In this document: positions 5,954 to 34,789 of the stretch, piece after piece
How the letters are laid out: each line of letters opens with the position of its first letter
Numbering within the stretch: the first letter of the stretch is position 1
DNA from: Thermus amyloliquefaciens
Lineage (GTDB): Bacteria > Deinococcota > Deinococci > Deinococcales > Thermaceae
Direction of reading: 5' to 3'
Length of the DNA: 64,000 nucleotides
NCBI RefSeq assembly: GCF_000744885.1
Contig: NZ_JQMV01000003.1
Span: 1,674,001 to 1,738,000, forward strand
Notes under the pieces: model-generated
What the model was told of the DNA's origin: nothing
What the model saw: the letters and a program-made list of their open reading frames with translations, nothing else
Database searches by the model: none
Made by a program: the position numbers and the translations under genes

Positions 5954-6188
5954 CGCCAAAGAAGGAGCACCAAGGCCGCCACCCCAAGCCCCCACGCCGG
6001 CCCCTCAGGGAAGAGGCCCGGGCCAGAAGGCCATCCAGAACATCCAAGGTCCAGCCCAAAAGGAGCAGGCGGACCACGCTCGCCAAGGCCTCGGGCCCTT
6101 CCCCTACCCGGAGGAGGACCAGGACCACCACCCCACCCCGGGCCAAGGTGGCGAGATCAGCAAGAAGCCGGGTCCAGGCCATCCTCAT
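5950..6188 (-). pseudogene. Small membrane protein with a CDP-alcohol transferase-like motif, possibly frameshifted
   Basis: Starting inside the 3' end of the sirtuin gene, this frame encodes two hydrophobic segments and then DVLDGLLAR, which resembles the start of the CDP-alcohol phosphatidyltransferase signature D-x2-D-G-x2-A-R. The frame continues with low-complexity sequence. One added base near 6010 would instead join it to PEGPAWGLGVAALVLLLWR and a stop touching the der stop. That gives about 79 residues, far too short for a complete enzyme. I suspect a broken or reduced membrane protein; low confidence. Confidence 0.3.
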
Positions 6189-6909
6189 CCAAAAGGGCCC
6201 CCAACCCCTCCACCGCCCCCATCCTTAGGGAGAGGTGGGCCAAGGGGGTAAGGGGGGTGGGCTCGGGGTTCACCTCAATGAGGTAAGCCCCGGAAGCGTA
6301 GGCAATGCGCCCCAGGGAGGCGGCGGGCTCCACCTCGGCGCTGGTGCCCACCACCAGGGCCACCTCCGCCTGGGCAAAGGCGGCCTCCGCCCGCTCCCAA
6401 GCCCCTTCCGGCAGGAACTCCCCGAACCAGACCACGTCGGGCCGGGCCCTATGCCCACAGCGGGGGCAGTGCGGGGGCGGGATGAAGGGCTCCGGGAGGG
6501 GGAAACGGTGCCCGCAGGCCTCGCACCGGGCGCGAAGAAGGTTGCCGTGGAGCTCCACCAGGTTCCGGCTGCCGGCGCGGGCGTGGAGGCCGTCCACGTT
6601 CTGGGTGACCAGGAGAAACTCCCCCCCTCGCGCCAAAACCTCCTCTTCCAGGCGCACCAGGGCCAGGTGGGCGGGGTTGGGAAGGGCCTCCCGCACCTTG
6701 GCGATGCGCCAAGCGTACCACCCCCAGACCTTCTCCGGATCCCTGGCGTAGGCCTCCGGGGTGGCGTAGTCCAAGGGATTGAACTCCTTCCAAAGCCCTT
6801 CGGCATCGCGGAAGGTGGGGATGCCCGAGGGCTTGGAGATGCCCGCCCCCGTTAGGACCGCCACCCTCCGGGCCTCCTTAAGCCGCGAACGAGCTTTCCC
6901 CAACCCCAT
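6157..6909 (-). CDS. cobB: NAD-dependent protein deacylase, sirtuin family
   Basis: Removes acyl groups from lysines using NAD, releasing nicotinamide and O-acyl-ADP-ribose. The product has 250 residues. It shows GAGIS near residue 21, GIPTFRD, the catalytic TQNVDGLHARAG region with His in ELHGN, and a zinc-ribbon CEACG...CPRCG. VVGTS and IEVNPEPT complete the Rossmann fold. The ATG sits 6 bases after TACCAT (leaderless layout) and is divergent from nnr. Its 3' end overlaps a small membrane ORF. Confidence 0.93.
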   Translation of the reverse strand: MGLGKARSRLKEARRVAVLTGAGISKPSGIPTFRDAEGLWKEFNPLDYATPEAYARDPEKVWGWYAWRIAKVREALPNPAHLALVRLEEEVLARGGEFLLVTQNVDGLHARAGSRNLVELHGNLLRARCEACGHRFPLPEPFIPPPHCPRCGHRARPDVVWFGEFLPEGAWERAEAAFAQAEVALVVGTSAEVEPAASLGRIAYASGAYLIEVNPEPTPLTPLAHLSLRMGAVEGLGALLDEDGLDPASC

Positions 6910-6944
6910 AAATCCATGGTACTTTCCGGAGTATTCTGGAAGCC

Positions 6945-8404
6945 ATGGCCACCTCCCTGAGGCTCTTTACCCCTGAGGCCATGCGGGAGGCCGACCAGAA
7001 GGCGGCCGAAATGGGCTACCCCACCCTCCTCCTCATGGAGTGGGCGGGGATGAAGGCGGCAAGGGTCTATAGGGAGCTATTCGGAAAGGCCCCCGCCGTG
7101 ATCCTGGCGGGCAAAGGGAATAACGGCGGCGACGGCCTGGTCCTGGCCCGGCACCTCCTCCTGGAGGGGGTGGCGGTGCGGGTCTACGCCGCAGAGGGCC
7201 AGCAGGGGGATGCCCTCCTGGCCCGAGGGGCTCTTCAGGCCCACGGGGTGAAGATCCGCTCCCTGGAGGAAGCCGCCTGGGACCGGGAAGAGGTGTTGGT
7301 GGACGCCCTCTTCGGCACCGGGCTGAAGGGGCCCCTGGAAGGCTTCCACAGGGGTCTGGTGGAGCGGATGAACGCCTCCGGCCTGCCCATCTTGGCCCTG
7401 GACCTGCCCTCGGGGCTCCCCTATTCCCCCCATGTGCAGGCCACGGCCACCGTGGCCTTCGCCGCCTTCAAAACTCCCCATTTCCTCAAGCGGGAGGCCT
7501 GCGGGCAGCTTTTCCTGGCGGGGATCGGCCTACCCAAGGCCCTTCTGGAGCGGGAGGACCTTCCCGAGGTGGCCACCCCGGAGGCCCTCCTGCCCCTCCT
7601 GCCAAGACGCCCCCTCACCGCCCACAAGGGGAGCGTGGGCCGGGTGGGGGTTTTAGGGGGGTTTCGGGGCGAGGGGCTTCGCTACGCCGGGGCCCCGGTG
7701 CTTTCCGCCCTGGGCGCCTACCGCATGGGGGCGGGGCTGGTGCACCTGGTGGCCCCGGAAGGGACGCCCCTGGAGCCCCTCGAGGCCGTCTTCCACCCCG
7801 TCTTGGCCCCCGCCTTGCCGCCCATGCGGGTGGAGGCCCTGGCGGTGGGGATGGGCGGGGGCCTTGGGGGCGGGAGTGGGCCCTGAAGGCCCTGGAAGCC
7901 CGGCTCCCCACGGTGCTGGACGCCGACGCCCTCCAGCCTGAGGTGGTTGAGGCCTACCGCAAGGCGGGGATCCCCACCGTCCTCACCCCCCATGCGGGGG
8001 AGGCGGGCAGGCTCCTTGGGAAGGCCCCCGAGGAGGTGGCCCAGGACCCCTTGGCCTCGGCCCAGGCCCTGGCGGAGGCCACGGGGCAGGTGGTGGTCCT
8101 GAAGGGAAACCCCACGGTGGTGGCGGAAGGTGGCCGCCTCTCCGTGAACCCCACCGGCAACCCCGCCTTGGCCACCGGGGGAACGGGGGACGTGCTCTCT
8201 GGGGCCATCGCCGCCCTCCTGGCGGCAGGCCTTCCCCCTTTTGACGCCGCCCGGCTTGGGGTTTACCTCCACGGCCTGGCAGGGGACCTTTTAGCGGAGG
8301 AAAAGGGGGTCGGCCTCCTGGCCCGGGAGGTGGCGGAGGCTCTTCCCCGGGCGCGGAGGCTTTTGGAAGGAGGGCAGGCGCCCTGGCCCTTTTCCCGGGT
8401 ATGA
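6945..8404 (+). pseudogene. nnr: Bifunctional NAD(P)HX epimerase/dehydratase, frameshifted
   Basis: Repairs hydrated NAD(P)H. The N-terminal YjeF_N epimerase domain is seen in EADQKAAEMGYPTLLLMEW and GKGNNGGDGLVLARHL. The C-terminal ADP/ATP-dependent dehydratase (carbohydrate-kinase-like) has TPHAGEAGRLL, LKGNPTVV and NPALATGGTGDVLSG. The frame breaks near 7870 in a GGGGG run: one extra G would join VGMGGGLGGR to EWALKALEARLPTVLDADAL. The second half has no start of its own. It is either a true one-base deletion or a homopolymer error. The ATG lies 7 bases after TATTCT. Confidence 0.88.
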
Positions 8405-22581: not shown

Positions 22582-23250
22582 CTACAGGTACTTCTGCAGC
22601 CACTCCGGCGTAATCCGGAGGAAGAAGGCGTTCAGGGCGCTGTAGGTCCCCGTGAGAAGCAAAACCCCCACCACCAGGAGCACCACCCCCGCCAGCAACT
22701 CCACGTAGTGGGAAAGCCGCCCCGCCCGCCGCAGCCACCCCTTGATGCGCTCGGCAAACAGGGCCACCAACAAAAAGGGCACGGCCAGGCCCAGGATGTA
22801 GCTCACAAGCAACCCCACCCCACCCCCCACCGCCGTCAGGGTGAGGATGGCCCCCAGGATGGGCCCGATGCAGGGGGTCCAGCCCAGGGCCAGGGTAGCC
22901 CCCAGGAGAAAAGCCCCCAAGGGGCGGGCCGTCTCCCCCTCGTAGCGCAGGTTCACCCCCCATCGGGGCCTGAGGCCCAGCATATATAGGCCAAAGAGGA
23001 TCAAGACCACTCCCCCCACCCGGGCCAAGGTCTGGCGGTGTTCAAAAAGAAGCCCTCCCAGCAAGGTAAAGGGTAGCCCCAAGAGGAAGAAGACCAACCC
23101 AAAACCCAAAACGAAGAAGAGGGCGTTGAAAAGGGGGCGCCCCCTTTCCCCCCCCAAATAGACCAGGTAGGTGGGCACCAGGGGCAAGACGCAGGGGGAA
23201 AGGAAGGAGAGCACCCCCGCAAAAAACGCCGCCGCCAGGGAAACGCTCAT
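22582..23250 (-). CDS. ccdA: Thiol-disulfide transporter CcdA
   Basis: Six-span membrane protein that carries reducing equivalents from cytoplasmic thioredoxin to the outside for cytochrome c maturation and thiol proteins. The 222-residue product has the paired active-site cysteines in FLSPCVLPLVP and WTPCIGPILG. The location between the Sox cluster and the ccm genes fits a role with the exported thioredoxins CcmG and the Sox-linked one. It follows the soxD-like gene by nine bases. Confidence 0.92.
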   Translation of the reverse strand: MSVSLAAAFFAGVLSFLSPCVLPLVPTYLVYLGGERGRPLFNALFFVLGFGLVFFLLGLPFTLLGGLLFEHRQTLARVGGVVLILFGLYMLGLRPRWGVNLRYEGETARPLGAFLLGATLALGWTPCIGPILGAILTLTAVGGGVGLLVSYILGLAVPFLLVALFAERIKGWLRRAGRLSHYVELLAGVVLLVVGVLLLTGTYSALNAFFLRITPEWLQKYL

Positions 23251-23259
23251 GCCTTCATC

Positions 23260-23808
23260 CTAGGGCAAGGTGAGCCAAGGGAAGCGGCGCTTGGTTTCAG
23301 GATCCAACTCCAGAAGCTCCCGGGCAGGCATCCGCACCTGGGGCAGGGTCTTCTGGTTGATGGGCTCTTGGGCGTCAATGATGCCGTTCATGTAGAGGAG
23401 GAAGGCCACCAGGTGGTAGACCTCCTCGTCCGTGAGGGTGCCGGGAGCGCCGAAGGGCATGGCGCGGCGGATGTAGTCGTAAAGGGTGGTGGCGTACTGC
23501 CAGTAGTTGCCGATGGCGAACTCGGCGGGCTCGGTATCCGGGGTGATGGGGAAGGGCTCCGCCACCAGGCGGTTGAAGGGGTAGCCCTCGCCCCTAGCCC
23601 CGTGGCAGGAGGCGCACTTTTCCGCATAGATCCGCTCCCCTTCCTCCACCCTCCCCTCCCCCGGGGGAAGCCCCCGGCCGTCCGGGAGGACCACGGGCCT
23701 AAGGTCGTACTGGGCCGCAAGCTCCTCGGAGATGGGGGTGCCCAGGTTGTACCGGGCCCCCACGGCCAGGCCCAGGAGGGCCAGAAGGACCAAAACGCGC
23801 TTAGCCAT
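23260..23808 (-). CDS. soxD: Cytochrome c subunit of sulfite/sulfur dehydrogenase, SoxD-like
   Basis: Exported monoheme cytochrome c of about 182 residues with a signal peptide (RVLVLLALLGLAVGA) and CASCHGARGEG near residue 67. A methionine in RRAMPFGAP is the likely sixth ligand. It overlaps soxC by eight bases, so it should be the electron acceptor of the SoxC molybdoprotein. Classical SoxD is larger and has two hemes, so SorB-type naming is possible. A TTG one codon upstream of the chosen ATG is an alternative start. Confidence 0.82.
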   Translation of the reverse strand: MAKRVLVLLALLGLAVGARYNLGTPISEELAAQYDLRPVVLPDGRGLPPGEGRVEEGERIYAEKCASCHGARGEGYPFNRLVAEPFPITPDTEPAEFAIGNYWQYATTLYDYIRRAMPFGAPGTLTDEEVYHLVAFLLYMNGIIDAQEPINQKTLPQVRMPARELLELDPETKRRFPWLTLP

Positions 23809-25084
23809 CAAACACCTCCCCCCCGCATCCGCCCATGGGCCCGAAGGCCTGCTGGCCCAAGGGCCTGTCCCCGTTCACCACCCGGCCGTTGGGCAGAATG
23901 CGCCAGGCCTGGATGGCGTTGTAGTGGTAGCGGTTGTTCCTGCCCCACTTCTTGAAGAACTCCTCCCGGGTGGGCTGGGTATTCCCCTTCTCGTCCCAGG
24001 CCCGGCTCCAAAGCACCACCTCCTTGCCGTCCCAGTGCCAGGGCATCTTGAAGCGCACGAAGGCGTAGCGCTCCACCGGGGGTTCTAAGGTGGCCTGGCG
24101 CCAGGTCCTCCCCTCGTCAAAGGAGATCTCCACCTTGGTGATGCGCCCGTACCCGCTCCAGGCCAGGCCCCGGATCTCGTGGAAGCCCGGCTTGATCTCC
24201 TGGAGGCCGGAGGGGTAGGTGATGATGGACTCCGGGTCCATGACCCAGGTGAAGGCCCAAACCTTGCCGTCCGCCATCACGTCGGTGTACTCGCTGGTCT
24301 CGTCCTTGGCCATGGCGGGGAGGTCCGTGACCAGGATGCGCCTGAGCCACTTCACCTGGATGCTCCCCTCCCAACCCGGCACCACCAGGCGCACCGGGTA
24401 GCCCTGCTCGGGGCGCAGGGCCTCCCCGTTTTGGGCGTAGGCCACCAGGACGTCCTCCATGGCCTTCTCCAAGGGGAGGGAGCGGGTGTACATGGCGGCG
24501 TCCATGCCCTCGGGGATAAGCCACTTGGCCTCGGGCTTCACCCCCGCCTCCTTGAGGAGGAGGGCCAGGGGCACCCCCGTCCAGCTGGCGTTGGAGGCCA
24601 GGCCCCGGCTACGGGTGGCGGTGAGGTTGGGGTCTGGGGGGTTGCGGTAGCCGTTTTGCCCGTTGCCTGCACACTCAATGAAGTAGGTGCGGGTCACGGA
24701 GGGGAAGCGCTTGAGGTCCTCGAGGGTAAAGACCAGGGGGCGCTCCACCATGCCGTGGATCACCAGCCGGTACTTGGCCGGGTCCACCTGCGGCACCCCC
24801 CCGTGGTGGCGCTCAAAGTGCAGGCCGTTGGGGGTGATGACCCCCTCCAGCTTCTCCAAGGGGGCGAAGTCCGCCCCGGAATGGCGGGTGCGCAGGTTGG
24901 GGGAGATGTAGCGCACCACCCCCTCCTCAAAGGGGCTCCTCTGGCCGTACTCGGAAAGGGGAGCCCCCAGGGTCTTCGTGGGGGCAAAGGTCTCCTCGTC
25001 CCAAGGGGCCGTCTGGGCCTTGGCCTTGAGGAGGCCCAGCACGCCCCCCGCGCCTAAGAGCCGGAAGAACTTCCTTCGGTCCAT
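23801..25084 (-). CDS. soxC: Molybdopterin sulfite/sulfane dehydrogenase SoxC
   Basis: Oxidises sulfur intermediates in the Sox pathway with a molybdenum cofactor. The 427-residue product has a Tat signal (DRRKFFRLLGAGGVLGLL) and the molybdenum-ligand cysteine in TYFIECAGNGQNGY. The Mo-binding features SRGLASNASWTGVPL and VPGWEGSIQVKWL are there too, followed by a Mo-co dimerisation domain. The ATG at 25084 has GGGAGGG ahead of it. It lies behind a terminator-like hairpin and is followed by the SoxD-like cytochrome. Confidence 0.93.
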   Translation of the reverse strand: MDRRKFFRLLGAGGVLGLLKAKAQTAPWDEETFAPTKTLGAPLSEYGQRSPFEEGVVRYISPNLRTRHSGADFAPLEKLEGVITPNGLHFERHHGGVPQVDPAKYRLVIHGMVERPLVFTLEDLKRFPSVTRTYFIECAGNGQNGYRNPPDPNLTATRSRGLASNASWTGVPLALLLKEAGVKPEAKWLIPEGMDAAMYTRSLPLEKAMEDVLVAYAQNGEALRPEQGYPVRLVVPGWEGSIQVKWLRRILVTDLPAMAKDETSEYTDVMADGKVWAFTWVMDPESIITYPSGLQEIKPGFHEIRGLAWSGYGRITKVEISFDEGRTWRQATLEPPVERYAFVRFKMPWHWDGKEVVLWSRAWDEKGNTQPTREEFFKKWGRNNRYHYNAIQAWRILPNGRVVNGDRPLGQQAFGPMGGCGGEVFDG

Positions 25085-25112
25085 ATACCCTCCCATCGTA
25101 TCCTTTGCCGGC

Positions 25113-25143
25113 AAGAAAAACCCCGCCCCACTCCGGGGCGGGG
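25113..25143 (-). terminator. Intrinsic terminator between soxF and soxC
   Basis: On the minus strand CCCCGCCCCGG and the matching GGGGCGGGG form a GC-only stem followed by TTTTTCTT, a textbook terminator. It lies inside the cluster, so soxC-soxD-ccdA either depend on read-through or have their own start. Confidence 0.75.
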
Positions 25144-25151
25144 CCCCCGCC

Positions 25152-26441
25152 TCAGGCGGGGCCGAACATGTCGTTCCAAATCCCGGTGGCCCAGCCGATG
25201 GCGGCGGTCCCGTTGGCGGCCGAGCGCTGGTTGTCCACGGAGCTTTGGGCCTTGATCTGCTTGGCCGCCTCGTCCCAGGAGTAGTTGGCCGCCACCCAGA
25301 TGGCCTCCTCCTTGTCCACGAAGGAGTAGCAGATGTTATGGGGAAGCTCAGGGGGGATCTCCGCCAGGGGCTTGCCCTTAAGCCTTTCCACCAGGTGCCG
25401 GGCCACGATGGTGCCGGACACGTAGGCCACCATGCCGCTTTTGGGGTAGGGGGTGTTCCCGGTGATATCCCCCACCAGGTAAACGCGGTCGTCCTTCTCG
25501 GAGAGGAAGTAGGGGATCCTCACGTTGGCCCAGCGCTCCCCCAGGCCCGCGGTGCGCACCAGCTCCCCCGCCTTCATGGGGGGGATGATGTCGGCCACGG
25601 TGAAGGGCACGTCCCCGAGCTCGGTCTTGACCACCTTTCGCCCATAGTCCAAGCCGGTGATGCGGGTGTTGGGCACGTACTCCAGGTAGCCCTTGTAGAG
25701 CTCGTTGTAGGCGGCGAGGAAGCCCGGGGCCTTGGAGACGGGCTGGGGGTTGGCATCCAGGACGATGAGCTTCCCCTTGACCTTCTTCTCCTTGAGCCGC
25801 CAGGCCAGCATGGCCGCCCGCTCGTAGGGGCCAGGGGGGCAACGGTAGGGGGGATTGGGGATGTACATGACCAGCTCCCCGCCCGTTTCATCAAACTGGT
25901 CCAGCTGGCGCCTCAAGGCGATGTGCTCAAAGGGCTTGAAGCCCACCGGCATGAGGTGCTTCACCTCGGCGTAGCCTGGGATGGCCTCGTACATATAGTC
26001 AATGCCCGGGGCCAAGACCAAATAATCGTAGCCGATGTAGCCCCCGCTGGTGCGCACCAGGCGGCGGTCCCGGTTGATGTCCAAGACCCTTTCCTGGACG
26101 AAGATGACCCCGTCCTTGACCACGTTGGTGTAGTCAAAGACCAGCCATTCCAGGGGCTTCACCCCCGCCAGGAAGAGGTTGGACATGGGGCAGGACATGA
26201 AGATGGGCTTCTGCTCAATGAGCACCACCTCCACATCCACCCCGGACTGGGCCAGCTTCCGGGCCACCGTGGTGCCCCCCCAGCCACCCCCGATCACCAC
26301 CACCCGCGGCTTGCGGGTCCGGGGGAGAAGGGTGGCCGGGCGGCTGTAGAACTCCTGGGCGAAGGCCTGCCCGGAAAGGGCCCCCGCCGCGGCCAAGGCC
26401 GCCCCCGACTTGAGAACCTGACGCCGACTAACCTTGCTCAT
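25152..26441 (-). CDS. soxF: Sulfide dehydrogenase flavoprotein, SoxF/FccB-like
   Basis: FAD-dependent subunit of a flavocytochrome c sulfide dehydrogenase, stimulating the Sox system. The 429-residue product has a Tat signal (SRRQVLKSGAALAAAGAL), the FAD-binding VVVIGGGWGGTTVARKLA near residue 48, and the YDYLVLAPGIDY motif. VYLVGDITGNTPYPKSG near the C-terminus binds the flavin. Redox cysteines occur in FMSCPMSN and NPPYRCPPGPYE. No separate FccA cytochrome is adjacent. Confidence 0.88.
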   Translation of the reverse strand: MSKVSRRQVLKSGAALAAAGALSGQAFAQEFYSRPATLLPRTRKPRVVVIGGGWGGTTVARKLAQSGVDVEVVLIEQKPIFMSCPMSNLFLAGVKPLEWLVFDYTNVVKDGVIFVQERVLDINRDRRLVRTSGGYIGYDYLVLAPGIDYMYEAIPGYAEVKHLMPVGFKPFEHIALRRQLDQFDETGGELVMYIPNPPYRCPPGPYERAAMLAWRLKEKKVKGKLIVLDANPQPVSKAPGFLAAYNELYKGYLEYVPNTRITGLDYGRKVVKTELGDVPFTVADIIPPMKAGELVRTAGLGERWANVRIPYFLSEKDDRVYLVGDITGNTPYPKSGMVAYVSGTIVARHLVERLKGKPLAEIPPELPHNICYSFVDKEEAIWVAANYSWDEAAKQIKAQSSVDNQRSAANGTAAIGWATGIWNDMFGPA

Positions 26442-26461
26442 GCTCCCTCCCTTGAACGCAC

Positions 26462-27313
26462 CTATTGGCCAGGACGGTAAGGGCTACCGCCCGTGGCTTC
26501 CAGGATCTGGGACATCACCTGGCGGGCCTCTTGGAGCATGGCCACCGCCGGGCTACCCATCACCCCCGGCATGATGGTCATGAGCATGGGCTCAATGGCC
26601 CCCACCAGCACATCCGGCCCCATCTGCATGGCGAAGAAGCGGCAAGGGGCGGCAAACCCACCCGCGGGTTGCGTGAGGAACATGATGCGGGCCCACTCGC
26701 TCTTGCAGGGCATGATCACCGTGACCGGGCCCACCTTCACGTTGGGGAGGAGGTTAAGCCCGTTGGAGGTGAGCTCGGTCTCCACCATGAGCACCACGTC
26801 CTCCACCTTGGCGGAGGGCACGCGGTAGAGGAGGGCAGGCATCATGCCGCTCCTGGGGTCGGGCATCACCGCAGGGGGCAGGCGGCGCACGATGCCCAGG
26901 CGGCCCAAGGCGGCCTCGAGGCGCCAGGTGAGCCGCTCCACCTCACCCCCGTACACCTGCAGCATGCCGAAGAGGAGCCGCCCGTCAAAGGTGCCCACCT
27001 GGTACTTCTGCCCCTGCCCGGTGATGAAGACGGTGGGGGGCAAGACGATGGCGGCCATGGGGTTCTTGGACACGGCCTCCACGCTTCCCTTCTCGGGCTT
27101 CAGCACCACCAGGCGGTATTCGGGGAAGCCAGGGCCGGTCACCTGCCGCACCTGCTCCCCCAGGTTCAGGACCCGGTCCGGTTCCAGGCCCACCGACCTC
27201 AGGGCCTCCAGGGTCTTAGCCTCCACCTCCTCCAAGGAGCCCCGGACCTCCACCACCAGGGACTGGGCCAGGGAAAGGCCCATCAGCGCCAAAAGAGCCA
27301 GCAGTTTCCTCAT
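26462..27313 (-). CDS. Exported DUF302-like protein
   Basis: A 283-residue exported protein with a signal peptide (KLLALLALMGLSLAQ). Two similar halves each resemble DUF302, a small alpha/beta domain of unknown role often found beside sulfur and redox genes. VGLEPDRVLNLGEQ and a cysteine in VTVIMPCKSEWARIMF are visible; the second half is Met-rich. It overlaps the rhodanese gene by four bases and precedes soxF, so it probably works in periplasmic sulfur chemistry. Confidence 0.6.
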   Translation of the reverse strand: MRKLLALLALMGLSLAQSLVVEVRGSLEEVEAKTLEALRSVGLEPDRVLNLGEQVRQVTGPGFPEYRLVVLKPEKGSVEAVSKNPMAAIVLPPTVFITGQGQKYQVGTFDGRLLFGMLQVYGGEVERLTWRLEAALGRLGIVRRLPPAVMPDPRSGMMPALLYRVPSAKVEDVVLMVETELTSNGLNLLPNVKVGPVTVIMPCKSEWARIMFLTQPAGGFAAPCRFFAMQMGPDVLVGAIEPMLMTIMPGVMGSPAVAMLQEARQVMSQILEATGGSPYRPGQ

Positions 27314-27754
27314 GATCCTCCCTCCACTTCCAGGCCGGCGTCCAGCCAGCCCTTGAAGCCGTGCGCGATGTTCTTGGCGTTGTTGTAACCGAAAGCCTGC
27401 AGGTAGGCCGCCACCACCATGGAGACGCTCCCCGAGTTGCAGTAGACCAAGATCAGGGCCTCCTTGTCCTTGGGAAGCTCCGCCAGGCGGTCCGGCACCT
27501 GCCCGGCGTAGATGTGCACCGAACCGGGGATGTAGCCCTTTTTCCGCTCCTCCTCCGTGCGCACGTCCAGGATAAAGGGGTCAAAGAGGAGAAGGTCCTT
27601 GGCCTCCGTGGGGTAGACCAGGTAGCTGGCCGGGGGTACCCGCTTGAGAAAGGCCCCGAAGGCCACCACCCAGTCCCCCCCCCACGCCCCCTCCCCCCTG
27701 GGCCTGGGCCCAGGGCAGGATGGGAAGAAGGGCGAGGAGGTCCCGGCGGCGCAT
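27310..27754 (-). pseudogene. Rhodanese-like protein, signal peptide out of frame
   Basis: Sulfur transferase with one rhodanese domain: FILDVRTEEERKKGYIPGSVH, then the catalytic loop LVYCNSGSVS with the active cysteine, then FKGWLDAGLEVE. An ATG at 27754 begins a good signal peptide (RRRDLLALLPILPWAQAQ), but it is one base out of frame with the domain. The mismatch falls in runs of six, five and nine G near 27675-27700. A GTG at 27669 could start a cytoplasmic form without the signal. An exported rhodanese fits the Sox context better. Confidence 0.78.
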
Positions 27755-27756
27755 GG

Positions 27757-28563
27757 CTAGCGGGTGAAGAAGGGCAGCTCCTCAAAGGAGTGCCCGGACT
27801 TGGTGGCCTCGGCCAGCATGTACAGGGTGAGGGCGATGTGCACGTCGGAGTAGAACTCGGGCTTGGGGATGGCGATGGACTCGTAGCAGAAGTTGATGCG
27901 GTCCTCCATGGTGTAGAGCTTGTCCTCCTCAAAGCGGTAGGCGGGCCACTCGTTGCCCAAGCCCTGCTTGGGGCTCCTAACGGGGGAAAGCCGCACCCTC
28001 TGGCCCGCGTACTGGTCGTGGCAGATGGCGCAGCTCATGTCCCGGGCCCCGGCCCGGGTGTACCAAAGCTCCCGCCCCAGGTTGTACATGGCAAGCTCAG
28101 CGGGGTGCTTGGGCACCACCTGAATCTTGGCCTTGGAGGAGAAGGAGGCGATGTAGGTGGTGATGGCCTTAACCTCGTCCCGCTTGATCTCGTTGGGTTT
28201 AAACCCCTGGACCGTCTGCATGCAGGTGTACACCCGGGTTTCCAGGTCCTCCACCCGGCGGCTGTCCGGGAAGTACTTGGGCAGAATGGCGTAAACCCCC
28301 TCCAAAACCCCCTTCCCCTTGCCGAAGTCGCACTCCTCGAGGGTCTTGCCGCTGGGCCCCTTGCGGAAAAAGAGCTCCTTGCCCTCCTTAGCGAAGAGCT
28401 CGCCCGGAAGCACCCCAAAGGTTTCCAGATACATCTGCCGCTGGCGCATGGCTTCCTCAAAAGGATCCAGGGGCTTGCTTTGCTGAGTATACGCCACCAC
28501 GCCAGCCAGGGCGCCAAAAGCGACCGCACCCAGAAACATGAAACGCATCTTGTGGCTCCTCAC
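27757..28563 (-). CDS. soxA: SoxA, heme subunit of the SoxAX cytochrome (first pair)
   Basis: SoxAX attaches thiosulfate to the SoxY carrier. The 268-residue product has a signal anchor (MFLGAVAFGALAGVVA), a single CAICH heme site near residue 180 and the conserved C-terminal cysteine in RINFCYESI that supplies the persulfide ligand. The N-terminal domain keeps the fold (ECDFGKGKGVLEGV) without a second CxxCH. It is paired with soxX three bases upstream. A second soxA (31425-32207) is similar throughout but clearly diverged. Confidence 0.9.
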   Translation of the reverse strand: MRSHKMRFMFLGAVAFGALAGVVAYTQQSKPLDPFEEAMRQRQMYLETFGVLPGELFAKEGKELFFRKGPSGKTLEECDFGKGKGVLEGVYAILPKYFPDSRRVEDLETRVYTCMQTVQGFKPNEIKRDEVKAITTYIASFSSKAKIQVVPKHPAELAMYNLGRELWYTRAGARDMSCAICHDQYAGQRVRLSPVRSPKQGLGNEWPAYRFEEDKLYTMEDRINFCYESIAIPKPEFYSDVHIALTLYMLAEATKSGHSFEELPFFTR

Positions 28564-28566
28564 GGC

Positions 28567-29127
28567 TCACCTCCGGTTAATGGGAGAGCTGGGGTCCAAG
28601 AGGAAGGCCACCAGGTCAGCGGTCTCCTCCGGGGTGAAGAGGCCGTGCACCCCTCCCCGGTACATGAGGGAGCAGGGCACGAAGGCCCAGGCGTTGTAGA
28701 TCTTCTCGTAGGTGTACCGCACCACCGCCTCCGAGGTGCCCCGCTGCCCATAGTTGGTCAGGCTCGGCCCCATGGTGCCGTAGGCCACCTCCGTGGCCAC
28801 CCCCGCGTGGCAGGCGTAACAGTTGCCCCGCTTGGGGTCGGTGAAGACCTTCTCCCCGTTTCTCCAGTCCCCCATGAGCTTGCCGCTCGCTGGGTACTTG
28901 ATGAGGGCCTTCTGCTCCGCCAAAAAGCCCGGGATGAGGTCCGCGGGGAGCTTGTCCCGGTATTGGGAGCAGAGGGCCTGCCCCTTGTCCTGGGAGAGCA
29001 TGACCTGGGCGAACTCATGGCCGCCCGCATGCAAAGCCGCCTCAAAGCGGGCTCTGAAGGGGCCCACCTGCGAAAGCCCTAGCCCCAAAAGCAAAAGGCC
29101 GCCAATCGCAACCGCTGTCCTTCTCAT
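28567..29127 (-). CDS. soxX: SoxX, small cytochrome of SoxAX (first pair)
   Basis: Monoheme cytochrome c partner of SoxA. The 186-residue protein has a signal peptide (VAIGGLLLLGLGLSQ), GNCYACHAG near residue 105, GPSLTNYGQRG, and a possible Met ligand near PCSLMYRGG. It ends with the ETADLVAFLLDP helix typical of SoxX. The start overlaps the soxB stop by four bases. A paralogue lies on the other side of soxB. Confidence 0.9.
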   Translation of the reverse strand: MRRTAVAIGGLLLLGLGLSQVGPFRARFEAALHAGGHEFAQVMLSQDKGQALCSQYRDKLPADLIPGFLAEQKALIKYPASGKLMGDWRNGEKVFTDPKRGNCYACHAGVATEVAYGTMGPSLTNYGQRGTSEAVVRYTYEKIYNAWAFVPCSLMYRGGVHGLFTPEETADLVAFLLDPSSPINRR

Positions 29128-30845
29128 CCCTTCACCTCCGGAACCTGATACGTCCTGCCGAGCACGCGCACGTTGGGGTTGGGGAGAACCCTCACCCTGC
29201 CTACCCCCTTCAGGTACTCCTCCAGCACCGCGTAGATGGGCCTGGGCTCGAAGCCCGCCTTGGCCTCCCCCACCCGCTGCAGCCTCCCCCCATAGGCGGC
29301 CACCAGGTACCGGCGATTGGGATCCAGGGGCTTGCCGCCCACCTCCACCTCCCGCACCCGCTGGCCCGTGGGGGCGTCGGGGTCCAGGACGTAGCGCAGA
29401 CCATAGGTGCGGCTCACGTCCCCGCCCTGCTGGTAGAAGGGGTCGGGGCTGAACACGTTGCTGGCGATGTCCTCCAGAACGCCCCGGATCTGCTCCCCCC
29501 GGAGCCAGAAAAGGTGGAGCTCCGGATAGGTGAAACCGGTGTAGGCGTAGAGGTGGTCGCGGGTGATGGCCTGGCCAGGAAGGAGGGTGGTCCCCCAGCG
29601 CACCGCAGGGCTGAAGACCACCTCCACCTCGGGGTAAAGAGCCCGCACCGCCTCCCCCACCATCTGGTCAAAGGTGGAATAGAGGGTATCCCGCTTGTAA
29701 AGGAGGCTTTCGCAAACCGCCAAGGGCTCAAAGAGGTGTTGGCGGTGGGGAGCCACCCGCTCCTGAAGCCACTTTTCCACATCCTCCGCCTTGGGAAGGT
29801 GCTGGGAGAGCACCGGCAGGACCCGCACCCGCAGGTTGGCGATGCCCCCCTTCCAGAGCTTCAGGTCCACCCGCATCAAGGCCTTGCCCGCGGCACTCCC
29901 CGCCACAATCCAGGTCTTCCCCACCCGCCAGGGCCTGGGGGTGAGGTCGTGGGTGTGGCCCGAGAGGATGAGGTCAAGGCCCTTGATCCGCTCCGCCAAG
30001 GCGGCGTCCAGCTGCAAGCCGTTATGGGAGAGGAGGACCACCGCCTCTGCCCCTTCCGCCCGGGCCTGGTCCACCGCCTCCTGCAACCGCCGCTCGTCCA
30101 AGGCGAAGGAAAGCCCCTGGGTGAACTCCTCCGGGTGGGAGACCTTCACGTACGGATAGGTGGCCCCCACCACGGCCACCGCGTGCTTGCCCAGCTGGTG
30201 GATGCGGTAAGCGGGGAAGAGGGGATCGCCGAAAAGCTCGTCCACCACGTTGTAGGAGAGGTGCTCACCCCGGAACCGCTTCAAGAGCTCCTCCACCCGC
30301 TCCCGCCCCAGGGTCCACTCCCAATGGGAGACCATGTGGTCCACCCCGGTGAGGTTCTGCCACTCCACGATGGCCTCCCCCTGGGTGAGCAGGGAAAGGC
30401 CGGAGTTGGTCCAGGTATCCCCCCCGTCCAGGACCAAAGCCTGGCCCCCCTCCGCCTCCACCTGGGCCTTCTGCTGGCGGATCAGGGCCGTCAAGGCGGA
30501 AAGCCCCCCAATGGGGCCAAAGGCCCGGGCCAGCTCCTCAAAATTCACGTAGGAAAGGAGATAGGCCAAGGGCGTGCCCCGCTCCACCCCGTAGTAACGC
30601 AGGATGGCCTCGCCGGTGAGGTATCCGGGGCGGCCCATGAGGGGCTTGGGGGCGATGAGGTTGGGCGGCTCCATGAAGTAGTGGGGGAAGGCCTGCCCGT
30701 GAAGGTCGGAGAAGTAAAGCAGGGTGGCGTCGCCGTAGGGGGGAAGCTCATAGAGCCGGCCAGGGTTTTCCAGGACCTGGGCCAGGGCCTTGGGACCTAG
30801 GCCCGCCAAAGCGGAAAAAAGGTAGAGGAGCTCTCTCCGGTTCAT
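29124..30845 (-). CDS. soxB: Thiosulfohydrolase SoxB
   Basis: Dimanganese hydrolase that releases sulfate from the SoxY-bound sulfonate. The 573-residue product has a Tat-like N-terminus (NRRELLYLFSALAGL) and metal-binding motifs ATLLYFSDLHGQ, VLDGGDTWTNSG, LSHNGLQLD and LSGHTHD in the 5'-nucleotidase fold order. The C-terminal domain follows with GEQIRGVLEDIASN. Length is normal. It overlaps the soxX genes on both sides by four bases. Confidence 0.94.
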   Translation of the reverse strand: MNRRELLYLFSALAGLGPKALAQVLENPGRLYELPPYGDATLLYFSDLHGQAFPHYFMEPPNLIAPKPLMGRPGYLTGEAILRYYGVERGTPLAYLLSYVNFEELARAFGPIGGLSALTALIRQQKAQVEAEGGQALVLDGGDTWTNSGLSLLTQGEAIVEWQNLTGVDHMVSHWEWTLGRERVEELLKRFRGEHLSYNVVDELFGDPLFPAYRIHQLGKHAVAVVGATYPYVKVSHPEEFTQGLSFALDERRLQEAVDQARAEGAEAVVLLSHNGLQLDAALAERIKGLDLILSGHTHDLTPRPWRVGKTWIVAGSAAGKALMRVDLKLWKGGIANLRVRVLPVLSQHLPKAEDVEKWLQERVAPHRQHLFEPLAVCESLLYKRDTLYSTFDQMVGEAVRALYPEVEVVFSPAVRWGTTLLPGQAITRDHLYAYTGFTYPELHLFWLRGEQIRGVLEDIASNVFSPDPFYQQGGDVSRTYGLRYVLDPDAPTGQRVREVEVGGKPLDPNRRYLVAAYGGRLQRVGEAKAGFEPRPIYAVLEEYLKGVGRVRVLPNPNVRVLGRTYQVPEVKG

Positions 30846-31414
30846 TTAGACCCCACCGCAGGCTTGGTGTTGAAGTCCGACTCCGGATCCAGGAGGTAGG
30901 CCACGATGTCCGCAATCTCCTCCGGGGTAAGAAGCCCCTGGGCCCCGAAGCGGTACATGACGGTGCAGGGGAAATAAGCCCAGGCGTTGTAGATGACCTC
31001 GTAGGTGTAGCGCTGGATGGCCTCCGACTGCCCCCGTTTTAGGCCGTACTTCTCCAAGCTGGGCCCCACGTCCCCGCCCAGGTGCACCGGGGAGCCGAAA
31101 TGGCAGGAGAAGCAGTTGGCCTTCTGCAGGTTGTTGAAGATGGCCCCGCCCTTCCTCCAGTCCCCCATGAGCTTGCCGCTTTGGGGGTAGCGGATGAGGG
31201 CCCGTTGCTCCTCCAGGAACTTGGGGAGGAGGTCAGAGGGCAGGCGGTTCCGGTGGATGGAGCAAAGAGCCTGATCCGGCCGCTGGTTCAAGAAGACCTC
31301 GGCATAGGCCTTGCCGCCGGTCTTGACGGCCTCCAGCTCGGGAGGGTTGAGGTACGACTGGGCCAAGGCCCCCACCAGGAACGCGGCCAAAAAGATAGAC
31401 TTCTTCGCCTTCAT
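30842..31414 (-). CDS. soxX: SoxX, small cytochrome of SoxAX (second pair)
   Basis: Monoheme cytochrome c with a signal peptide (KSIFLAAFLVGALAQ), ANCFSCHFGSP near residue 107, GPSLEKYGLKRG and TEE/PEEIADIVAYLLDP near the end. The closest relative visible here is the soxX at 28567-29127, with the shared stretch SGKLMGDWR. ATG 31414 follows GGAGGGGG and is preferred over an upstream in-frame codon. About 190 residues. The presence of two pairs suggests different partner or substrate preferences. Confidence 0.88.
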   Translation of the reverse strand: MKAKKSIFLAAFLVGALAQSYLNPPELEAVKTGGKAYAEVFLNQRPDQALCSIHRNRLPSDLLPKFLEEQRALIRYPQSGKLMGDWRKGGAIFNNLQKANCFSCHFGSPVHLGGDVGPSLEKYGLKRGQSEAIQRYTYEVIYNAWAYFPCTVMYRFGAQGLLTPEEIADIVAYLLDPESDFNTKPAVGSK

Positions 31415-31424
31415 CGCCCCCTCC

Positions 31425-32207
31425 TCAGCGCACAAAAGCCGGCCACTCCTCCACCACCGCCCCGTTGTTGTTGTAGGCCATGAAAAGCTCCAGGGCCAGG
31501 ATGGGCAGGGAATAAAGGTTGGGCTGGGGATGGCCGATGTTGCCGTAGCAGGCCCGGATGCGGTCCTGCATGGTCCAGATCTGGTCGTTGGAGTAGCGGT
31601 AAGCGGGCCAGTGGGTCCAGGACTTGTCCTTGCCCAGGACGTCCGCGTAAGGCAAGACCCCGGCCCGCCTGCCCACGTAGGTCACGTGGCAGGTGGCGCA
31701 ACCGATGTCCCGTGAGCCGCTGCGGGCGTAGAAGAGCTTCTCCCCAAGGGCATAGAGCTCCCTTTCTTGAGGAAAGAGAAGCCTCACCTGGATGGGCTTC
31801 CCCGTGGAGAAGCTGGCGATGTAGAAGGCCACCGCCACCACCTCGGACCGCTTCACCTGTTCCGGCTTAAACCCCTGGACCCGGGTCATGCAGGTGACGA
31901 TGCGGCCGTCCAAGTCCTCCACCCGGTTTGTGTCCAGGAAGTAGCGGGGAAGCCGGGCAGCAGCCCCCTCCAGCACCCCCTTGCCCAGGCCAAAGTCGCA
32001 CTCGGCCATGGTCTTGCCGCTGGGCCCTTTGCGGTTAAAAAGCTCCTTGCCCTGCTCCACAATGAGCTCGGTGGGCAGAATGCCTGCAGTTTCCAAAAGG
32101 AGCTGTTTTTGCCGCTTGGCCTCCTCCCGGGGGTCCACCCCCTCCTGGGCTAGGGCAAGGACCGCCAGGGCCAAAACAGCAGCCGCCAACCACGCCTTAA
32201 GGGGCAT
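31425..32207 (-). CDS. soxA: SoxA, heme subunit of SoxAX (second pair)
   Basis: The 260-residue product has a signal peptide (WLAAAVLALAVLALAQ), one heme site GCATCHVTY near residue 175 and the ligand cysteine in RIRACYGNIGHPQP. It shares KELFNRKGPSGKTMAECDFG with the other SoxA. ATG 32207 has GGAGGAGG two bases upstream. It is separated from soxZ by a strong hairpin, so its level may be lower than that of soxYZ. Confidence 0.9.
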   Translation of the reverse strand: MPLKAWLAAAVLALAVLALAQEGVDPREEAKRQKQLLLETAGILPTELIVEQGKELFNRKGPSGKTMAECDFGLGKGVLEGAAARLPRYFLDTNRVEDLDGRIVTCMTRVQGFKPEQVKRSEVVAVAFYIASFSTGKPIQVRLLFPQERELYALGEKLFYARSGSRDIGCATCHVTYVGRRAGVLPYADVLGKDKSWTHWPAYRYSNDQIWTMQDRIRACYGNIGHPQPNLYSLPILALELFMAYNNNGAVVEEWPAFVR

Positions 32208-32222
32208 ATCCTCCTCCATAAA

Positions 32223-32244
32223 GGCGCCCGGTTTTCCGGGCGCC
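32223..32244 (-). terminator. Intercistronic hairpin between soxZ and soxA
   Basis: A perfect 9-bp stem GGCGCCCGG / CCGGGCGCC with an AAAA loop on the coding strand, followed by only TTTA. It is likely an attenuator or 3'-end protector that lets soxYZ be made in excess over the catalytic genes. Confidence 0.6.
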
Positions 32245-32249
32245 CAACC

Positions 32250-32576
32250 TTAGGCCAGCTCCAGTTTTACCGTGCCCTCACCGGTGTCCCCGTCGGTGTC
32301 CTTCAGCTTTACGGTAAAGGTCCCCACCTTTTCCGCCTTGAACATGAAGCCGTAAAGGGGGTTGGCGCTGGTGGAGGGACCGGGGCGGGCCTCCGCCACC
32401 TTTTCCCCCTCAAAGTAGACCTCCACCAGGTTGATGTACTTGGCCGGGATGAGCTTGCCCTCGGCATCCTTACGAGTGCCGGGCTCGTTGGGATGCTGGG
32501 CCACCACCTGGAGCTTAAAGTTCTCGCCCGCCTTGGGCTTGGCCGGGGTCAAGCGAACAATGGTGCGAATGGGCAT
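32250..32576 (-). CDS. soxZ: Sulfur carrier complex subunit SoxZ
   Basis: Immunoglobulin-like partner of SoxY in the SoxYZ carrier. The 108-residue protein has no signal peptide and presumably leaves the cell with SoxY through Tat. Family features include a basic start IRTIVRLTPAKPKAGENFKLQV, NLVEVYFEGEKVA, and a C-terminal strand TGEGTVKLELA. It follows soxY by 11 bases. Confidence 0.92.
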   Translation of the reverse strand: MPIRTIVRLTPAKPKAGENFKLQVVAQHPNEPGTRKDAEGKLIPAKYINLVEVYFEGEKVAEARPGPSTSANPLYGFMFKAEKVGTFTVKLKDTDGDTGEGTVKLELA

Positions 32577-32587
32577 CCTCTACCTCC

Positions 32588-33040
32588 TTAACCGCAACCA
32601 CCCACGGTCACGCGGGTGCTGGCCGAAGCCAACAGGAGCTTGCCGTCTGCCGTTTCCACCACCGCCCGCACCGCGCTGGTCTCCGCCAGGCGCACCCGGG
32701 TGGCGTAGTAGGGCAGGGCCTTCATGGGCATGAAGGCCACCAGATGGGGGGTGGGGTTCTTGTCGGCGAAGAGGTGGATGGCCTTCACCTGATTGGAGGG
32801 CAGGTTCACCTCCACCTCAGCGGGAACGTTGGCCCCGCTTTCGGCAATGGCCGGCATGGTGAGCTTAATGAGGTTGGAGGGGGTGAGGTCCTTAAACCCC
32901 TTGCCCAAAACTGCCTGCAGGGCCTTCTCCAGGTTGGCCAAGTCCTCGCCCTCTAAACCCTGCGCCCTTACGGGAAGCCCCGCCAAAGCCACGGCCCCGA
33001 GGGCTACGCCGGTGGTCCTTAAAAACGCTCGCCTATTCAC
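32588..33040 (-). CDS. soxY: Sulfur carrier protein SoxY
   Basis: Carries pathway intermediates covalently on a C-terminal cysteine. The 150-residue product has a Tat signal (NRRAFLRTTGVALGAVALAG) and ends VTVGGCG, the swinging-arm motif GGCGG-like with the essential cysteine next to last. GTG 33040 follows GGGAGGT and overlaps the thioredoxin stop by eight bases. Confidence 0.93.
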   Translation of the reverse strand: MNRRAFLRTTGVALGAVALAGLPVRAQGLEGEDLANLEKALQAVLGKGFKDLTPSNLIKLTMPAIAESGANVPAEVEVNLPSNQVKAIHLFADKNPTPHLVAFMPMKALPYYATRVRLAETSAVRAVVETADGKLLLASASTRVTVGGCG

Positions 33041-33476
33041 ACACACCTCCCTTGGCACACATCTGGCGCAGCTCCAAAAGGAACTGCGCCCGGGGCCGGC
33101 TGCCAAAAAGCCGGCCCACCTCTTCCCACGTCCCCTTGCGGTGGACGAGGAAGACAAAGGTGGGGGTACCCGGCACCCTATAACGCCGAGCAAGCTCCTG
33201 GCCTTCCGGGGTCTCCGTACCCACAGAGGCCACCACAAACCGGTCCTCTAGAAGCCGGCTCACCTGGAGATCGGAGAGGACGAAGGTGTTCATCTGATCG
33301 CAGTAGGGGCAATGGGGGGAATGGAAGTATACCATGACCACCCGACCGTGGGCCTGGGCCAGCTCTAGCGCCGTGCCATGGGGATACCACCGCGCAAAGT
33401 CCGGCGCGGCCAGGGTTACGGTCAGGATTAGCACCGAGAGGAGCCAGAGTACCCGGTATGCGTACATGTTATACAC
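33033..33476 (-). CDS. Exported thioredoxin of the Sox cluster (SoxS/SoxW-like)
   Basis: A 147-residue thioredoxin-fold protein with an N-terminal signal or anchor (RVLWLLSVLILTVTLAAP), the active site FHSPHCPYCDQM and the cis-proline loop VPGTPTFVFL. Thioredoxins of this kind keep SoxY reduced and active in other Sox systems; that role is inferred. It is first gene of the minus-strand sox operon. The start could be the ATG at 33476 or the one three codons later. Confidence 0.82.
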   Translation of the reverse strand: MYNMYAYRVLWLLSVLILTVTLAAPDFARWYPHGTALELAQAHGRVVMVYFHSPHCPYCDQMNTFVLSDLQVSRLLEDRFVVASVGTETPEGQELARRYRVPGTPTFVFLVHRKGTWEEVGRLFGSRPRAQFLLELRQMCAKGGVCE

Positions 33477-33503
33477 CGCCTGGGTACACCCAAGGACATT
33501 TGC

Positions 33504-33546
33504 ACCCTAGCATCCCCCCTGGGGCCGTGTCAAGCTCCTTTGACAC
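33504..33546 (-). promoter_or_regulatory. sox operon promoter with overlapping inverted-repeat operator
   Basis: On the minus strand TTGACA (33533-33528) and TAGGGT (33509-33504) are 18 bases apart. The -35 is one arm of a perfect inverted repeat GTGTCAA-N6-TTGACAC (33527-33546), the size expected for a dimeric repressor site. The other arm gives a TTGACA facing the opposite way. No regulator gene is seen nearby. Confidence 0.6.
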
Positions 33547-33639
33547 AAGATCCCCTTCTCATAGGAGTTCGCTTATATGGCCTCTTCCCCCTACCCCCCG
33601 GGGCTATACCCTTAAGAAAACCTAAAGCCCAGGCTTAGC

Positions 33640-34789
33640 CAGACTTGACCGTTATACCCCTTTTGGGGTAAATGATTCCCATGACCCTGCGCGAAGCCCT
33701 ATCCCAGGTTCCCGACCCCCGGGCCCACAACCGCCGCTACCCCCTCTGGGGCCTGCTGGCCCTGGTTCTTTTGGCCTTCCTCTCCCGCGTGGACTCCCTG
33801 CGCGGCGTCTCCCGCTTTGCCCGCGCCAACCCCCACCTCCTCCCCCACCTGGGCCTGCGCAAGGCCCCGGGCCACACCGCCCTCACCCAACTCCTTCACC
33901 GCCTGGACCCCCAGGCCCTGGCGGAGGCCCTGGCCAAGGTCTTCCCGGGAAGGGAGCTGGAAGGGGAAAAGGTCCTGGTGGCCGACGGCAAGGTGCTGCG
34001 AGGGAGCGGGAAGGGCAAGAGCCCCCAGGTCCGCCTGGTGGAGGCCTGGGCCCTTTCCCTGGGGCGCACCCTGGCCCAGGCCAGGGCGGAGGGAAGGGAG
34101 GACAAGGCGCTTCTGGAGCTTTTGGAGCGCCTGGGGGCCGAGGGGCTTGTGGGGAAGGTGGTGGTGGGGGATGCGGGGTTTTTGTACCCCGAGGTGGCCC
34201 GCCAGGTGCGGGCAAAGGGGGGGAGTACCTCCTGGTGCTGAAGGGGAACCAGGGGGGGCTTTTGGGGTGGGTGCGTGAGGTGTTTGCGGGGATGGCGCGA
34301 GGAGCCCTGCCTGGGGAGACGCGGGCGGAGTGGGTGCGGGAGGCAGACGGGGAGGTGAGGCGGTACGAGGTGTGGGCTTCTCCGGTGTTGCCCCCGGAGG
34401 TGGCGGCCTTTCCTGGGGCCAGGCAGGCGGTGCGGCTGGTGCGGGAGGTGGTGGTGAAGGGGACGGGGGAGGTGAGGCGGACGGAGGGGTACGCGCTCAC
34501 GAGCCTTGGGCCGGAGGAGGCGGACGCCCGGGTGCTGGGGGAGATTTGGGTGGGGCGATGGGGGGTGGAGAATGGTTCCTTCTGGGTGCGGGATGTGCTT
34601 TTGCGGGAGGACGCCTTTCAGGTGCGGGGGCGAGGGGGTGAGGTGCTGGCGGTGTTGCGGGCGCACTTGGTCTCGTGGTTGAACTGGAAGGGGGTGCGCC
34701 GGAAGAAGGCGGCCTTGGAGGTTTTCTCCTTCAACCCCCTGGCTGCCCTGCGGTTCCTGGGGCTCTATGCAGAATAGCGGTCAAGTCTG
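33640..34789 (+). mobile_element. ISAs1-family insertion sequence, copy 2
   Basis: 1150 bp, same ends as copy 1 in the opposite orientation, flanked by the direct repeat AGGCTTAGC (9 bp, 10 if one end base is shared). It lies between the sox promoter and cycA, and its right end stops 17 bases before the cycA -35. A few base differences from the other two copies (for example GTGCTG for GTGGTG at the frame junction) show it is not the most recent duplicate. Confidence 0.93.
33672..34777 (+). CDS. ISAs1-family transposase, two frames (copy 2)
   Basis: The same DDE transposase as copy 1. Frame one is 33672-34241 with the two catalytic Asp regions; frame two is 34235-34777 with RWGVENGSFWVRDVLL. 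The join is again a -1 shift at seven G (near 34217), before GAG TAC CTC CTG. Conservation of the break in all copies argues against random decay. Confidence 0.88.

Follow-up and report, generated by a model that had tools for sequence, protein, structure and literature searches.

Two old, diverged SoxXA pairs flank soxB in Thermus amyloliquefaciens and other Thermaceae and probably differ in role

The sox gene cluster of Thermus amyloliquefaciens (assembly GCF_000744885.1, genome of 2.16 Mb) lies in a stretch of 64,000 nucleotides of contig NZ_JQMV01000003.1, forward-strand positions 1,674,001 to 1,738,000, which is called the window below and by whose own numbering all coordinates are given. 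The cluster encodes the subunits SoxA and SoxX twice, one pair on either side of soxB, and a preliminary description of the window had proposed that the two pairs are intact, clearly diverged and possibly different in role. Our results agree with that proposal, given that the residues fixed differently in the two pairs are concentrated in the catalytic segment of SoxA, that both pairs are under similar purifying selection, and that induction in Thermus thermophilus HB8 has been published. Judged from the sequences, specialisation of the paralogues, that is, some division of labour, is likely, and it is preferred because the pairs are old, both are maintained, and they differ where the chemistry happens. 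The fuller explanation, in which we place slightly more belief than doubt, is that a type-II-like pair (one with a single-heme SoxA) was duplicated long ago, with fixation in the Thermaceae ancestor or earlier, and that the product would be two co-expressed thiosulfotransferases with distinct active sites, working with one common SoxYZ carrier and one SoxB. The five genes in question, in transcription order and with residues referred to the thiosulfate dehydrogenase TsdA, are the following.

31425 to 32219, minus strand: soxA1, the upstream SoxA, with a second ATG at 32207 that was taken as its end in the preliminary description; Ser at the position of TsdA Arg109 and Gly at the conserved post-heme Arg
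30842 to 31435, minus strand: soxX1, heme motif CFSCH, listed from a TTG, the likelier start being the ATG at 31414
29124 to 30845, minus strand: soxB, thiosulfohydrolase, between both pairs, with a 4-nt overlap with each neighbour
28567 to 29127, minus strand: soxX2, heme motif CYACH
27757 to 28563, minus strand: soxA2, the downstream SoxA; Glu at the position of TsdA Arg109, post-heme Arg kept

The order soxA-soxX-soxB-soxX-soxA given previously is borne out by these open reading frames and by NCBIfam profiles, with SoxA1 and SoxA2 scoring 225.6 and 225.4 bits (TIGR04484, curated cut-off 110), SoxX1 and SoxX2 84.3 and 83.4 bits (TIGR04485, curated cut-off 61) and SoxB 709 bits (cut-off 550). 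At an E value of 0.001 or below, SoxA1 and SoxA2 are the only two SoxA matches in the whole genome. One CxxCH motif is present in each of the four subunits, and the SoxA ligand Cys, found within RIRACY in A1 and RINFCY in A2, aligns with a Cys of PDB entry 3oa8 whose place is taken by Met in 3ocd, an otherwise matching chain; with the paralogues 51% (A1/A2) and 56% (X1/X2) identical, the intact heme sites, the ligand Cys and the clear divergence described earlier also hold. The arrangement had been called a mirror, which is right for the gene order but not for the strand, all five genes being on the minus strand. The genes overlap or abut, the soxA1 and soxX1 frames overlapping by 11 nt as listed (or lying 10 nt apart if soxX1 begins at its ATG), soxB overlapping soxX1 and soxX2 by 4 nt each, and soxX2 and soxA2 being separated by 3 nt, which suggests a single transcription unit. 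They belong to a run of 13 genes on the minus strand, soxW-Y-Z-A1-X1-B-X2-A2-rhodanese-hypothetical-FCSD-C-D, where FCSD is flavocytochrome c sulfide dehydrogenase, and the Sox system is complete in that soxY, Z, A, X, B, C and D all fall in this one cluster. The best solved match of both profiles is 3oa8 (SoxA E 3e-63, SoxX E 2e-38), which, like 3ocd, is the SoxAX of Starkeya novella, a complex with a single-heme SoxA, labelled 'type II'. With this match, and with one CxxCH in 34 of 34 A1 and 37 of 37 A2 sequences, both complexes class as single-heme.

The phylum set comprised 111 genomes, f1 being the family code of the window's genome and f4 that of another family. SoxA is carried by 45 of the 50 f1 genomes. 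Loci were fetched from 38 genomes picked among those with a SoxA match, and the order A1-X1-B-X2-A2 is found in 32 of them, including G050 with a frameshifted X1; three lack pair 1, two, both of f4, have a single X-A pair, and one (G069) is split at contig ends. Recurrence of the order on this scale is not due to chance. Each of the 45 f1 genomes that bear SoxA has the soxA of pair 2 (8 unfetched ones judged by profile range), though in two pieces in the 65%-complete assembly G064. SoxB is over the cut-off in 40 of the 42 genomes with a pair-1 soxA, the exceptions being G064, where SoxB is in pieces, and G069, with its contig ends. In Allomeiothermus silvanus DSM 9946 (L036, L072) the sox cluster is carried by a plasmid record of 347,854 bp, at whose start there is also a partial second run from soxA2 to soxD.

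The arrangement is already in print for two species; statements attributed to papers here and below refer to the portions of those papers that were covered. Thermus brevis PS18 has a 13-gene cluster of the same order, with soxA and soxX in two copies each that are about 50% identical, and its sox genes are among the highly expressed (PMC13019369). The T. thermophilus HB8 cluster, TTHA1422 to TTHA1410, has the same order by locus tag, and in a mutant of the regulator TTHA1953 the genes TTHA1419 to TTHA1415 rose 25-, 33-, 8-, 16- and 9-fold (PMC10318464). Silence of one pair in every strain would speak against two roles, and the HB8 transcripts show no such silence. Searches for papers on paired or named SoxXA paralogues listed nothing about two SoxXA pairs other than the Thermus papers cited here.

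The evidence for specialisation comes chiefly from the SoxA active site. In TsdA of A. vinosum the reference positions are Arg109, Arg119 and Cys123, of which Arg119 is invariant and the equivalent of Arg109 is Lys or Ser in SoxA (PMC4423706). Counting SoxA positions back from the ligand Cys, the Arg109 equivalent is -14, and of the three solved SoxA chains compared one has Ser there and two have Lys, in agreement with that report. In the Thermaceae the residue at -14 is Ser in all 34 A1 and Glu in all 37 A2 sequences, Ser being found also in both f4 sequences. The 18 type-II outgroup sequences have Ser (14), Gly (3) or Thr (1), and the other Pseudomonadota (32 of 36 rows parsed) have Lys (18), Glu (11), Arg, Gly or Pro (1 each). 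The Lys-or-Ser state reported for SoxA is found in A1 and not in A2, and it does not define the family, with Glu in 11 of those 32 other SoxA-profile rows. The C-terminal CxxCH, the downstream Cys ligand and an Arg at -4 are present in every A1 (34/34) and A2 (37/37). So is an Arg at -16, which from the numbering would be the Arg232 (precursor numbering) called invariant in SoxA (PMC4423706); it is replaced by Thr in both f4 sequences (L053, L054) and by Phe in 2 of the 32 other rows. A second marked difference is the post-heme Arg, which lies 13 residues downstream of the heme motif's first Cys and is residue 190 in the 1h31 chain by our own count: it is Arg in 37 of 37 A2, in both f4 and in 18 of 18 type-II sequences, and Gly in 34 of 34 A1. 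The type-II rows are one residue shorter after the heme, so that a reading at fixed offset is off by one and the alignment was used instead.

At a threshold of at least 95%, 13 SoxA columns separate the paralogues (34 A1 and 36 A2 rows), and 10 of these lie between the heme motif and a point just past the ligand. With two gap columns excluded, 9 of 22 doubly fixed columns differ in the catalytic segment (A1 residues 174–228) versus 2 of 56 elsewhere, and this clustering is new in this analysis. Ratios of nonsynonymous to synonymous substitution (dN/dS) against six Thermus relatives are 0.09–0.19 for A1, 0.10–0.23 for A2, 0.12–0.21 for X1, 0.11–0.19 for X2 and 0.12–0.19 for SoxB, so both pairs are under similar purifying constraint.

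Several points tell against two specialised complexes. The Fisher p value of 1e-4 for the clustering comes from columns that are not independent and from a segment whose limits were chosen after the columns had been listed; the rows are related, and 34 of 34 and 37 of 37 are not independent events; and SoxX has few paralogue-fixed columns (4). Glu at -14 need not signal a new substrate, because among the 11 of 32 other parsed Pseudomonadota SoxA that have it two (L131, L137) stand beside soxB, and the exchange of Ser for Glu may be mild, because the R109A variant of TsdA alters the Michaelis constant only moderately (PMC4423706). In the genomes G054 and G055, described next, pair 2 alone accompanies SoxB, SoxC and SoxD, which fits plain redundancy, and the losses of pair 1 in G048 and in the clade of G054 may be recent and on the way to losing the pathway.

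These losses run in one direction, pair 1 being lost or broken in four of the genomes examined and pair 2 alone in none. In G054 (T. brockianus YIM 77927) and a relative, G055, a frame of 60 residues fuses A1 residues 1 to 47 in frame with the final 13 residues of X1; it still overlaps the start of an intact soxB, FCSD, soxC and soxD are retained, and in the G054 locus the DNA on the two sides of the deletion corresponds to A1 and X1 of G050. The locus of G048 consists of W-Y-Z, a remnant of the A1 leader and X2-A2, with A1, X1 and soxB gone within a 2.07 Mb contig; no SoxB over the cut-off was found in this genome (best score 114 bits), and its FCSD, soxC and soxD are kept at 89–92% identity to the window. 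Because G048 is nested in Thermus, this is a secondary loss. The possibility that it is a relic of an ancestral Y-Z-X-A order was ruled out, its A2 and X2 nesting beside those of G062 inside Thermus. The fourth case, the X1 frameshift of G050, is possibly a sequencing error. The f4 genomes G017 and G020 have the order FCSD-Y-Z-X-A-C-D and no SoxB over the cut-off, an absence weakened by their completeness of 84% and 71%.

The alternative that survives best, to which we allow a real but minor chance, is that the two complexes are near-equivalent and boost flux through the loading step, the residue differences being lineage drift. Besides the unaided pair 2 of G054 and G055, it gains from the presence of both pairs in one close-packed gene run with one SoxYZ and from their joint rise in HB8 (PMC10318464). 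Against it, the differences cluster in the catalytic segment instead of being evenly spread, each state is invariant within its clade, and the losses seen hit one pair only.

The age of the pairs was assessed from a quick SoxA tree of 70 rows, in which A1 and A2 each form one clade (98 for both), and from a tree of concatenated SoxA and SoxX (65 rows), which recovers each pair as a clade at 100/99 and separates the Thermales rows from 18 Pseudomonadota type-II rows at 100/100; both trees were built without Aquificota and gave a long-branch warning among outgroup rows. Within each pair's clade the G026 row and the g4 rows (except G028) branch away from the Thermus-like rows, and for this reason the duplication is, by these trees, at least as old as the Thermaceae. 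Of the two origins contemplated in the preliminary description the trees thus favour an old duplication over an acquisition, an ancient acquisition from an unsampled phylum such as Aquificota being compatible with them as well; Aquificota were suggested as donor in the paper on T. scotoductus SA-01 (PMC3235269). Recent acquisition of one pair is ruled out by the trees within the sampled rows, and a mirror (inverted) duplication is ruled out by the five genes lying on one strand and by the two old clades. In the type-II outgroup loci soxA precedes soxX in 18 of 18, and by our tally the order Y-Z-A-X-B is found in 11 of 18, so that the commoner arrangement is Y-Z-A1-X1-B, and the additional pair, X2-A2, runs in reversed order.

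This order also bears on a rather unlikely second alternative, compatible with specialisation, in which pair 1 or the block A1-X1-B entered an early Thermaceae ancestor from another lineage and was inserted between soxZ and a resident soxX-A, giving the mirrored order. In its favour, G017 and G020 have the Y-Z-X-A-C-D arrangement without SoxB over the cut-off, and f4 joins pair 2 at 91/63, with the pair-2 residue at 7 of the 13 fixed SoxA columns and the pair-1 state at 3 (own tally). The grouping is weakly held, however, as the approximately unbiased test does not reject f4 outside both pairs (p 0.41), and f4 with pair 1 narrowly escapes rejection (p 0.08); both pairs group together apart from the 18 type-II rows, with Aquificota and other phyla unsampled; the incomplete f4 assemblies make poor witnesses to SoxB absence; and G048, with the same order as f4, arrived at it by secondary loss. 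The SoxB sequences of the Thermaceae are a single clade, in which a long inner branch (0.42) lies under crown Thermus. This tree does not show that crown Thermus had its soxB replaced by transfer; the branch reflects either fast evolution or replacement. The SoxB of G071 groups with g2 and g4 rows, and the fork at which that of G057 branches off separately is unresolved.

A third alternative, which we regard as very improbable, is that the subunits cross-combine (for instance A1 with X2), or join in a bigger assembly where one SoxA serves purely as an electron relay. The 56% identity of X1 and X2 and their few paralogue-fixed columns make cross-pairing plausible; against the alternative, the ligand Cys, Arg -4 and Arg -16 are intact in both SoxA proteins and pair 2 stands alone in three genomes.

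If the pairs are specialised, which one does what is a guess that we offer tentatively. Pair 1, in the commonest type-II order, might do the standard loading of thiosulfate onto SoxYZ alongside SoxB, and pair 2 might act on some other state in the cycle, such as sulfane-bearing SoxYZ or a sulfide-derived input tied to FCSD and SoxCD, perhaps still carrying the pathway where pair 1 is gone. We arrive at this because pair 2 outlasts the loss of SoxB beside SoxCD and FCSD in G048, and because of an unexplained finding in Paracoccus, where SoxAX was unexpectedly required for thiosulfate-independent oxidation of sulfane-bearing SoxYZ (PMC5336275). A sharper version, which we regard as improbable, would split the SoxAX reaction itself, A1X1 loading thiosulfate for SoxB and X2A2, with its pocket Glu, priming or turning over sulfane-bearing SoxYZ, or taking sulfide-derived sulfur together with FCSD, and running with SoxCD without SoxB. 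Bearing on it are the gene content of G048 (W-Y-Z-X2-A2, FCSD, SoxC and SoxD, no SoxB) and that of the two f4 genomes (FCSD-Y-Z-X-A-C-D, no SoxB found); if true, it would explain why SoxAX is needed in the Paracoccus reaction. Different free substrates, such as thiosulfate and longer sulfur chains, had been suggested for the two complexes, and a division according to the state of the carrier or to the partner enzyme would fit equally well.

Outside the Thermaceae, among loci of at least 8 kb, soxB is absent in 6 of 7 rows with Glu at -14 versus 4 of 12 others (Fisher p 0.057), a lead only, as the 19 rows are not independent and SoxA-core repeats were dropped, so that often the shorter of the loci was retained, as with L131, which has Glu together with soxB. 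Two-heme SoxA with Glu at -14 and no soxB found within 10–11 kb occurs in the Pseudomonadota loci L136, L138, L139, L140, L149 and L150, and the genomes of all of these except L140 have at least one further SoxA over the cut-off. In L134 (positions 5693–8102; Pseudomonadota G359) two soxA about 1.2 kb apart accompany one soxX, with no soxB found in 14 kb.

The remaining genes of the T. amyloliquefaciens cluster are as follows.

33033 to 33476, minus strand: soxW-like thioredoxin
32588 to 33238, minus strand: soxY, listed from a TTG, the true start probably internal
32250 to 32576, minus strand: soxZ
27310 to 27669, minus strand: rhodanese-domain protein
26462 to 27313, minus strand: hypothetical protein, with DUF302 below its cut-off
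25152 to 26441, minus strand: FCSD flavoprotein
23801 to 25114, minus strand: soxC, molybdopterin-binding oxidoreductase, named from its position and the HB8 and PS18 papers
23260 to 23811, minus strand: soxD, cytochrome c, named in the same way

Between soxZ and soxA1 (32220–32249, minus strand) there is a perfect 9-bp GC hairpin, a possible site of RNA processing or attenuation; all 19 loci of the window's genus, together with L036 and L052, have a stem of at least 9 bp after soxZ, whereas in the 17 remaining loci compared the stems reach 5 bp at most. Across 22900–34200 there were no promoter-like sites (1.0 expected) and 12 terminator-like sites (11.4 expected), and the window holds 4 matches to the TTHA1953 operator at up to 3 mismatches, against 2.07 expected. 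Directly upstream of the sox genes (33672–34241, plus strand) is a frame that encodes a DDE_Tnp_1-associated (transposase) domain. In the signal peptides, inspected by eye, the residue preceding Gln is often Thr or Ser in A2 and often Ala in A1.

What is at stake is whether loading is a single reaction or two distinct ones. SoxAX has been hard to study mechanistically and the SoxYZ species on which it acts is unsettled (PMC4423706, PMC5336275). The Thermaceae offer two natural versions of SoxXA per cell together with species that cleanly lack one, which makes the role of each copy testable, and Thermus has a genetically tractable laboratory member. Gene disruption has been reported in HB8 (PMC10318464).

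Among the closest known systems, the clusters of PS18 and HB8 have the same gene order and two soxA and two soxX (with the identity stated for PS18); in the portions covered, neither paper takes up divergence of the active sites, how the pairs arose or their natural loss (PMC13019369, PMC10318464). The TsdA of A. vinosum has a homologous catalytic domain but joins two thiosulfates to tetrathionate without SoxYZ (PMC4423706). The SoxA structures 1h31 and 2c1d (Rhodovulum sulfidophilum and Paracoccus) have the Cys ligand, Arg -4 and Arg -16 in common with Thermus SoxA, and differ in having Lys at -14 and two hemes in SoxA, 1h31 being deposited as a diheme cytochrome c. The SoxAX of 3oa8 and 3ocd is like that of Thermus in its single-heme SoxA and, with Ser at -14, like A1, whereas Thermus has two pairs around soxB, of which A2 has Glu at -14 and A1 is without the post-heme Arg present in 3oa8.

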